Source: Leeuwenhoekiella nanhaiensis
GTDB lineage: Bacteria; Bacteroidota; Bacteroidia; Flavobacteriales; Flavobacteriaceae
NCBI RefSeq assembly: GCF_002744755.1
Contig: NZ_KZ319299.1
Span: 1-64,000, forward strand
Reading direction: 5' to 3'
DNA length: 64,000 bases
In this document: piece after piece, positions 7,535-8,022 of the stretch
Layout: every line of letters starts with the position of its first letter
Numbering within the stretch: position 1 is the first letter of the stretch
Notes under the pieces: model-generated
The model's input: only the letters and a program-made list of their open reading frames with translations
What the model was told of the DNA's origin: nothing
Databases searched by the model: none
Translations under genes and position numbers: made by a program

Positions 7535-7588
7535 TAAAAACAAAAAACCCCGAAACGTGAGTTTCAGGTTTTTTTGTGGTACCTCCAG
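7535..7588 (-). repeat. Direct repeat copy A: duplicated tRNA-Phe 3' end plus terminator
   Basis: This 54-bp stretch matches 7907-7961 with a single 1-bp indel (two versus three G before the T-run). It contains the last 12 nt of the tRNA-Phe gene (7577-7588) and the complete Rho-independent terminator. It lies downstream of the GIY-YIG gene and was probably the original tRNA tail, or a duplicate made on insertion. Confidence 0.85.
7548..7575 (-). terminator. Rho-independent terminator (copy A) after the GIY-YIG gene
   Basis: On the minus strand the stem CTGAAAC / GTTTCGG-type pairing with a 4-nt loop is followed by a T-rich run. It is the duplicate of the tRNA-Phe terminator. The stem is one base shorter than in copy B. 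Confidence 0.7.
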
Positions 7589-7612
7589 CCCCGATGCTTC
7601 GGGGGAGCCAGG
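7577..7612 (-). other. tRNA-Phe T-arm/acceptor remnant with the T-loop replaced by a GC hairpin
   Basis: On the minus strand, just after the GIY-YIG stop codon, CCTGG (7608-7612) is followed by a 19-nt insert (7589-7607) containing the hairpin CCCCGA-AGCA-TCGGGG, and then by CTGGAGGTACCA (7577-7588). In the intact tRNA the same two flanks enclose the 8-nt loop TTCGATTC. The remnant is therefore a tRNA 3' end whose T-loop was exchanged for a stable hairpin. Confidence 0.7.
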
Positions 7613-7614
7613 TT

Positions 7615-7899
7615 CTATCTTTTACTTAAAATTTCATTTAGTAGTTGAGGATTGTTAACTAGTTTCTCAATAAACTTTTTGCTTTTCATTCTCTTAATAA
7701 AGCGTTCCAGATACAAAGCTTCATTTCGATCTGCGCAACTAAAAGATAGCTTCAATACCCAGTCACTCGCAGCTTTTGTGTAGGCACTTTTAATTTTATG
7801 GGAATTGTGAATACTAATGCGTTGCTCTACGTCTGAAGTTTCACCAACGTAGAATTTATCAATTTTTTCAGAATAGATAATGTACAGGTAATGATTCAT
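7615..7899 (-). CDS. Small GIY-YIG nuclease-domain protein inserted at tRNA-Phe
   Basis: Protein of 94 aa, consisting only of a GIY-YIG domain. YLYIIYS supplies the GIY element and FYVGET the YIG element, followed by the Arg helix (DVEQRISIHN) and the metal-binding Glu (EALYLERFIKRMKS). Stand-alone domains of this size occur in many Bacteroidota genomes. The domain cleaves DNA in homing and repair enzymes; the function here is unknown. The gene lies on the same strand as tRNA-Phe and just behind its terminator, between two copies of the tRNA tail. That position suggests a small mobile or homing-like unit. All recognisable catalytic positions are retained, so it is probably not a decayed gene. 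Confidence 0.88.
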   Translation of the reverse strand: MNHYLYIIYSEKIDKFYVGETSDVEQRISIHNSHKIKSAYTKAASDWVLKLSFSCADRNEALYLERFIKRMKSKKFIEKLVNNPQLLNEILSKR

Positions 7900-7906
7900 T
7901 GATTTC

Positions 7907-7961
7907 TAAAAACAAAAAACCCCGAAACGTGAGTTTCAGGGTTTTTTTGTGGTACCTCCAG
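7907..7961 (-). repeat. Direct repeat copy B: tRNA-Phe 3' end plus terminator
   Basis: This 55-bp stretch is the partner of 7535-7588, with one G more. It includes the last 12 nt of the intact tRNA gene and its terminator. Copies A and B are 372 bp apart, start to start, and bracket the GIY-YIG gene. Confidence 0.85.
7920..7948 (-). terminator. Rho-independent terminator of tRNA-Phe (copy B)
   Basis: On the minus strand CCCTGAAAC-TCAC-GTTTCGGGG forms a GC-containing stem with a 4-nt loop, followed by TTTTTTG. It lies directly behind the tRNA 3' end. Confidence 0.8.
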
Positions 7962-8022
7962 GAATCGAACCAGGGACACACGGATTTTCAGTCCGTTGCT
8001 CTACCAACTGAGCTAAGGTACC
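7950..8022 (-). tRNA. tRNA-Phe (anticodon GAA)
   Basis: A 73-nt cloverleaf. The 7-bp acceptor pairs GGTACCT with AGGTACC, with discriminator A. The D-arm is GCTC/GAGC. The anticodon stem is ACGGA/TCCGT with loop CTGAAAA, so the anticodon is GAA (plus-strand 7987-7989). The T-loop is TTCGATT. The T-stem CCTGG/CCTGG has a U-U mismatch at the central pair. The terminal CCA is not encoded. It has its own promoter upstream and a terminator downstream. Confidence 0.97.

Follow-up and report, generated by a model that had tools for sequence, protein, structure and literature searches.

Directly after a complete tRNA-Phe gene, the window (the whole analysed stretch of 64,000 nucleotides from Leeuwenhoekiella nanhaiensis, genome G000) carries a terminator, a short GIY-YIG gene and the end of the same tRNA for a second time. 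The question raised by this locus is whether it is a mobile unit that leaves its target gene whole, and by what means such a unit would spread.

Organization of the tRNA-Phe locus and its nuclease

The order on the minus strand is tRNA-Phe, terminator, GIY-YIG gene, T-arm remnant, palindrome, copy of tail and terminator. The features are as follows.

7949-8022, minus strand: intact tRNA-Phe(GAA), the target gene kept whole (ARAGORN; Rfam 7950-8022).
7912-7947, minus strand: terminator hairpin, proximal copy, directly after the intact tRNA-Phe (repeat and fold).
7615-7899, minus strand: GIY-YIG nuclease gene, 94 aa (ORF; PF01541).
7605-7614, minus strand: degenerate remnant of the T-arm within the displaced tRNA copy, AACCTGGCTC (CCCTGGTTC in G005 and G003) (sequence).
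7589-7604, minus strand: hairpin CCCCGAAGCATCGGGG in the displaced copy, replacing the T-loop GATTC (sequence; compensatory changes in the Phe lineage).
7535-7588, minus strand: displaced tRNA tail and terminator, distal copy (repeat and fold).

The 54/55-bp direct repeat that an earlier note placed around the 94-aa gene is real: 7535-7588 and 7907-7961 share a 41-nt block (98% identity) and a 22-nt block (100%), the spacings of which, 372 and 373, differ by one base. It contains the terminator hairpin and the last 12-13 nt of tRNA-Phe, in agreement with the 12 nt given in that note. Folding energies of the two stretches are -19.9 and -21.5 kcal/mol (z -2.0 and -3.4), respectively. Tail and terminator were correctly described for the second copy, but a 16-nt hairpin was overlooked. 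This palindrome (CCCCGATGCTTCGGGG on the plus strand) is located at 7589-7604 inside the second tail copy. It separates the tail from the degenerate T-arm remnant and takes the place of the GATTC found in the T-loop of the intact tRNA. Both of its sides are tRNA sequence, somewhat degenerate on the nuclease side. Chance origin of the arrangement is excluded, since two other species of the genus share it and ten have a single tail without the nuclease.

Neighbours of the locus are genes of a DnaE-type polymerase, a Y-family polymerase, a DUF433/DUF5615 pair, EcsC and Mqo; on the other side is panK, the type III pantothenate kinase gene. The polymerase genes (PF07733, PF00817; 56-5063) are followed by the DUF433/DUF5615 pair, which may be a toxin-antitoxin. 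No integrase family matches the eight window ORFs nearest the locus (56-10152), as had been stated. The GIY-YIG gene is free-standing: its ORF lies between the two tail copies, outside any intron or intein. In window positions 1-16000, tRNA alone reaches the Rfam gathering score; intron families of Rfam are absent from 10 and 19 related loci.

The ORF product is assigned to the Pfam family GIY-YIG (PF01541) with E 9.5e-14 and 51.9 bits, against a cut-off of 22.6. Its nearest relatives in named genomes are proteins of Leeuwenhoekiella palythoae (69% identity) and L. blandensis (68%). Y6, Y17, G19, R27, H31 and E65, residues with catalytic roles, are invariant in alignments of 8 and 19 rows and include the conserved Tyr, Arg and Glu of the GIY-YIG superfamily. 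The AlphaFold2 model has a pLDDT of 93.4, and with only 94 residues there is no room for a second domain. The phage enzyme SegB is a larger protein. The closest solved sequences are UPF0213 1zg2 (E 1.9e-7), then SLX1, then the catalytic domain of I-TevI; Foldseek ranks them alike, only 1zg2 falling under E 0.001. The nuclease is without a separate DNA-binding domain and is nearer in sequence and fold to UPF0213 (YhbQ/YazA), likewise a core-only domain, and to SLX1 than to I-TevI. To our knowledge, UPF0213 and SLX1 nucleases are not mobile. Intact copies of the nuclease are under purifying selection (dN/dS 0.06-0.13 in within-genus pairs, dS being high in most); these pairs were used because dS is saturated or not computable in most of the more diverged ones.

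Filled and empty sites, targets and arrays

The tRNA-Phe locus was read in all 13 genomes of the genus and is the same locus throughout, since panK follows tRNA-Phe in 13/13. It is filled in three (G000, G003, G005) and empty in ten, where no nuclease follows the single tail. In these ten empty genomes, a protein search (1e-5) gave no close relative of the nuclease; the matches in G002, G007 and G008 are 31-40% identical and are located away from the Phe site. The intact tRNA-Phe (74 nt) is identical in eight of the ten; G009 and G012 differ in the acceptor stem. In each of the three filled genomes, the two tail copies agree with the tRNA and terminator of that host. By panK, G010 (87.1% DNA identity) and G006 (84.0%) are nearest to G000. 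In both, the sequence following the single tail and terminator begins like the outer flank of G000 (CAGGATGCGAATTAGGGGACGAATAAT; CAGGGGACGAATAATTTCGCACTT); the G006 contig ends about 155 nt beyond the matched stretch.

The tRNA-Ala(GGC) site is filled in four genomes (G000, G003, G005, G007) and empty in nine. Here the unit lies 5' of the tRNA, and its displaced 5' fragment comes after the native upstream sequence. The flank in G006 is nearly identical to the outer flank of G000, and that of G002 closely matches that of G007. Filled and empty alleles therefore occur at the same nucleotides among relatives, as for a free-standing homing endonuclease gene, and the single-tail empty sites proposed earlier as a check on mobility exist at tRNA-Phe (10/13 genomes), with Ala empty in 9/13. 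The Phe nuclease of G003 is split over two frames and the Ala nuclease of G000 is truncated; thus, decay is under way. The duplicated gene end in the genus measures from about 25 bp (Ala) to 67 bp (Asn).

Two further loci of G000 were recorded. The unit at tRNA-Ala(GGC) (L006/L090, G000:C1:45450-45830), on the 5' side, has a large hairpin in the displaced D-loop. Before tRNA-Asn (L104, G000:C1:273950-274140) there is a displaced 5' tRNA piece with the hairpin CCTGCCTGCCGATAGGCAGG and a short stretch at the place of the nuclease, likely the remnant of a unit.

The Phe nuclease genes of G000 and G005 share 70% DNA identity, their panK genes 68%. Because the two divergences are equal, vertical descent with several precise losses fits the Phe site as well as gains do. 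The Ala nuclease gene is 99% identical in G003 and G005, versus 82-95% over the 6.5 kb upstream and about 83% in the Phe neighbourhood. It lies on a slope of rising identity, and synteny stops after the tRNA, so this value only suggests an exchange between the two genomes.

A search profile made from eight such proteins (profile A1) matches in 83/149 sampled genomes of the family (1e-12) and in 175/296 of the phylum (1e-10), a match alone being no proof of a tRNA site. The loci that were read represent the best matches together with additional clusters chosen from high in the match list, not a random draw; with the repeats L164, L207 and L220 removed, they number 144 (88 family, 28 phylum, 28 named). 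Among these best matches a tRNA gene is present within 350 nt at 116 loci (70/88 family, 26/28 phylum, 20/28 named), on the same strand in all 116 and on the opposite strand in none. The tRNAs represent 23 isoacceptors. The nuclease is on the 3' side in 70 distinct loci, on the 5' side in 43 (30 of the 70 family loci) and between units in three. Two or more units are present in 45/144 loci (26 family, 11 phylum, 8 named), with a unit spacing of 254-450 bp in 60/66 cases. A displaced copy (at least 10 nt in common with the tRNA, located beyond the nuclease as seen from the tRNA) is found in 87/115 usable tRNA-adjacent loci, one site being entered twice in this count and in the hairpin count below (L207 = L119). 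The search at other tRNAs that the earlier note proposed thus finds a duplicated tRNA end, under this strict rule, across many targets; a replacement gene end together with a displaced native end, the hallmark of fungal mitochondrial mobile ORFs, is present in the window, in these 87 loci and in the epimerase cases described below. Some of the 28 loci missed by the 10-nt rule were overlooked by the script: L204-L206 and L213 are arrays that do contain copies, and L120 and L123 have degenerate hairpin copies (by eye). By the same rule and reading by eye, Asn L169, L174 and L184 and His L182 and L194 seem to lack a displaced copy. Their GIY-YIG genes stand 109-171 nt after the tRNA and are perhaps another variant.

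Within the genus, 9 of 40 distinct short GIY-YIG loci passing the profile at 1e-3 are beside a tRNA; two further loci fail the profile. Many of the non-tRNA loci have direct repeats on both sides, by eye dispersed intergenic repeats. Short GIY-YIG genes between direct repeats occur at L055, L066, L003, L077, L085 and other loci, one example of such a repeat being 154 bp with the ends GTCACTTCGAGTG / CACTCGAAGTGAC, which suggests a link between short GIY-YIG nucleases and dispersed repeats. Beside 19 tRNA-less family loci (L164 excluded, L089 included), an Rfam search for RNA other than tRNA gave one match, tRNA-like, in L121. One scan of viral contigs with the Ala protein confirmed no relative. 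At L088 and L089, tandem GIY-YIG units are located near tyrosine-integrase genes (Phage_integrase, E 3e-19, and Phage_int_SAM_5, E 3e-18, respectively), perhaps attachment sites of integrative elements.

Nuclease lineages are mostly tied to one tRNA. The tree (97 proteins, 79 columns, quick method, 52/93 forks unresolved, 18 tRNA-less rows treated as one group) requires 32 changes of tRNA label, compared with a mean of 71.7 in shuffles, 0/200 of which are as low. One-branch groups are Phe (7 rows, support 99), Leu-CAA (5 rows, 96) and Ala (4 rows of one genus, 98); Arg-TCT (3 rows) and His (2 rows) also each occupy one side of a branch. Met and Pro-GGG labels are unclustered. The Leu and Asp groups (support 96 each) and the Arg group (88, not firm) include both 5'- and 3'-side insertions; hence target fidelity outlives the side of insertion. 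Target-specific nucleases would produce such sorting; part of it could also come from long vertical inheritance.

A related nuclease is present directly after the GGAGF codons of NAD-epimerase genes at L154, L160, L162 and L170 (PF01370, E 3e-50 to 1.5e-66). The displaced start ends in NP-stop, and the whole gene then follows with a different N-terminus. The units have inverted ends, ACCCGTGAAAT / ATTTCACAGGT and variants; by eye, no hairpin of the tRNA type is present at the break. Similar ends are seen by eye at L150, in another gene.

The hairpin of the displaced tRNA copy

A GC-rich hairpin with an arm of at least 6 is present in 69/87 displaced copies (85-100 nt next to the nuclease), compared with 12/249 windows farther out, 157/1740 shuffles and 21/87 intact tRNAs. 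Several of the 18 misses show bulged palindromes by eye. The hairpins occupy loops and junctions (D-loop 14|18 and 22|23, anticodon loop 35|41, variable loop 45|51, T-loop 56|62) or replace whole arms: the Val anticodon arm is replaced by TCCCGA-loop-TCGGGA and the Pro T-arm by TCACGC..GCGTGA. The insert of the Pro array L178 is not a clean palindrome. The first insert caller gave no insert for 41 tRNA-adjacent loci, 38 of which were then read by eye.

In the Phe lineage the position 56|62 is constant in seven named genera: Leeuwenhoekiella, Psychroflexus, Gelidibacter, Flavobacterium, Croceitalea, Wenyingzhuangia and Galbibacter. Over 21 rows, 124/126 cells are paired, with one broken pair each in L124 and L140. 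Four of these rows come from arrays that the set already includes, as their second units; duplicates of other rows and further units of L202 (with two 18-nt hairpins) are left out, and L214 and L219 gave no Phe hairpin segment. In two pairs both partners change (12 cells), and 0/500 shuffles reach this cell number or the covariation score, a result favoured by the structure having been read from the sequences being tested; the number of both-side-changing pairs alone is ordinary (171/500 shuffles). In a smaller set (17/23 segments, without L140, L124 and five repeat or near-repeat rows), 102/102 cells are paired; the 21 rows comprise this set with L140, L124 and two more array units. In one Arg group the hairpin position follows the lineage across sides: L088 on the 5' side and L117 (by eye) and L126, both on the 3' side, all have it at 32|33, L117 also having a 5' copy with other hairpins. 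No such agreement across sides is found in the Leu or Asp groups.

Two origins of the hairpin were rejected. A chance hairpin in the tail copy is ruled out by position, compensatory changes and controls. Landing of common genomic palindromes is rejected because the 39 GC-rich, non-terminator-like palindromes with arms of at least 7 (400 kb of the own genome and the 64-kb window), a handful of them of related type, are too few for a 60-nt target. A dispersed element of ~110 bp occurs at G000:C1 about 26500, 141450 and 367320 (L092, L098, L109); by eye, its palindromes differ at one shared internal place, as the hairpins of displaced tRNAs do.

Proposed mode of spread, alternatives and significance

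The window unit is probably a member of a family of very small, homing-like mobile elements that reside on tRNA genes of Bacteroidota chromosomes and spread via break repair. The earlier claim of a mobile unit is supported by the empty sites, in the majority at two tRNA loci, by the 23 targeted isoacceptors and by the intact tRNA beside a duplicated end; nuclease-driven movement and its direction we infer. A unit would consist of three parts: a core-only GIY-YIG nuclease of about 80-100 aa, of a lineage mostly tied to one tRNA; a copy of one tRNA-gene end, which keeps the tRNA complete once the unit has inserted; and the displaced remainder of the tRNA, with the GC-rich hairpin occupying one of its loops or arms. 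The nuclease would break the DNA of the tRNA gene at the position of the hairpin or close to it. Two homology arms, the intact tRNA at one flank and the displaced tRNA end at the opposite flank, would then guide repair by recombination, and either the unit would enter an empty allele (homing) or tandem units would be added. Since the copied tRNA end would serve as the second homology arm within the unit, any genome sharing the tRNA gene could be entered. Unequal repair would give rise to arrays, and recombination between the direct repeats would remove a unit precisely. The hairpin most likely either sets the displaced copy apart from the target or serves as the recognition site of the enzyme. 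Because the design recurs at many tRNA genes and is cleanly missing from close relatives, the unit looks like a miniature genetic parasite.

The intact tRNA-Phe does not differ between the filled genomes and eight of the empty ones, so a nuclease recognizing the tRNA sequence only should also cut its own host copy. Self-immunity via a silent change in the intact tRNA was considered; no such change is seen for Phe. The lack of a protecting difference agrees with another mode of amplification, which is nevertheless unlikely: a structure-specific nuclease of the UPF0213/SLX1 kind would cut its own displaced copy at the hairpin, in cruciform or single-stranded form, and the tRNA-end homology beside the break would invade the tRNA gene, yielding tandem copies and occasional transfer, while an empty tRNA gene would never be cut. 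Conservation of the hairpin at a fixed place with compensatory changes, its enrichment in displaced copies, the nearest solved relatives and the frequency of arrays also accord with this mode. However, a generic hairpin cutter need not keep to one tRNA as most lineages do, hairpins of similar sequence stand at many tRNAs, and the epimerase relatives have inverted-repeat ends but, by eye, no such hairpin at the break.

An old tandem duplication with domestication has a low probability. It would have arisen once per lineage, passed on vertically, been lost by recombination between repeats and taken up a host role, with no movement. The constant position of tRNA-Phe beside panK (13/13 genomes), the equal divergence of nuclease and panK and the purifying selection are consistent with it. 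The range of 23 isoacceptors, the use of both tRNA sides, patchy presence and decayed copies argue against it, as do the Ala gene of G003 and G005, more alike than its upstream 6.5 kb and the Phe neighbourhood, and the epimerase-gene relatives with a different replacement 5' end.

Integrative elements attached at tRNA genes duplicate the tRNA 3' end and keep the gene whole. The tRNA tail repeats look like such attachment sites, and L088 and L089 are beside integrase genes; that the units are remnants or by-products of integrase-driven elements is, however, very improbable, given that these elements need an integrase, of which the eight ORFs nearest the window unit have no match, that the nuclease is on the 5' side in so many family loci, that the unit spacing is so short, and that hairpin and lineage-tRNA fidelity are present. 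It is equally improbable that the chimera of hairpin and displaced tRNA serves as a functional RNA, with tRNA or RNA as the substrate of the nuclease: compensatory changes are seen, and the rest of the chimera could still fold because the hairpins, as far as read, mostly occupy loops and junctions or replace whole arms, but patchy presence, decay and the relatives in epimerase genes speak against such a role.

The earlier expectation that the mechanism would be new is too strong, since close precedents exist in phage SegB and the mobile ORFs of fungal mitochondria, which, by analogy from the accessible parts of their descriptions, appear nearest in behaviour. SegB of phage T6 is described there as a free-standing GIY-YIG enzyme that cuts inside tRNA genes with the preferred motif RAWTSGAAC (23/83 sites), forms tandem repeats of tRNA and segB through recombination, shown in experiments, and has no favoured tRNA isotypes in its neighbourhood (PMC13096335). 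The reverse complement of this motif, GTTCSAWTY, fits the Phe T-loop GTTCGATTC, the last five bases of which are replaced by the hairpin. SegB of T4/T6 resembles the window family in being a free-standing GIY-YIG gene by tRNA genes, in cutting tRNA genes and in tandem repeats; it differs in belonging to phages rather than the chromosome, and the accessible parts of both accounts describe no displaced, hairpin-marked tRNA fragment (PMC13096335, PMC2988022). The lack of favoured isotypes in the same partial text also contrasts with the sorting by tRNA of most lineages in the window family (PMC13096335).

Mobile ORFs of fungal mitochondria (Glomus, Allomyces) are located in atp6, atp9, cox2 and nad3, according to the part of the source at hand (PMC3630166). 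As in the window unit, an endonuclease ORF within a gene brings a replacement end and the displaced native end remains. The same part of that source reports mitochondrial protein genes as hosts, LAGLIDADG enzymes in 3/4 Glomus cases (GIY-YIG in atp9), no hairpin, and foreign, diverged replacement ends, whereas the tRNA copies here match the host (PMC3630166). A foreign replacement end is not found at Phe; different N-termini occur only in the epimerase cases, which by analogy appear to resemble these ORFs. Titles and abstract openings of the open-access literature, the scope of the search (closed journals and preprints lying outside it), yielded no case from a bacterial chromosome.

A wider reading is tentative and may well not hold: the units could form a distinct class of mobile elements of ~250-450 bp each, in which a core-only GIY-YIG nuclease recognizing a structured site, either a loop of the tRNA gene or the installed hairpin, spreads and amplifies together with a replacement tRNA end and a hairpin-tagged discard, on at least 23 isoacceptors, nearly all seen in Bacteroidota, with the units in a conserved motif of epimerase genes as a sister group. 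The conserved hairpin is a concrete part of the element. As most lineages keep to one tRNA, the element raises the question of how a GIY-YIG core lacking a DNA-binding domain chooses its target. If the wider reading is true, essential tRNA genes would be attacked and the host would survive via a duplicated gene end of ~25-67 bp, and bacterial chromosomes would harbour a widespread, almost invisible class of selfish DNA.
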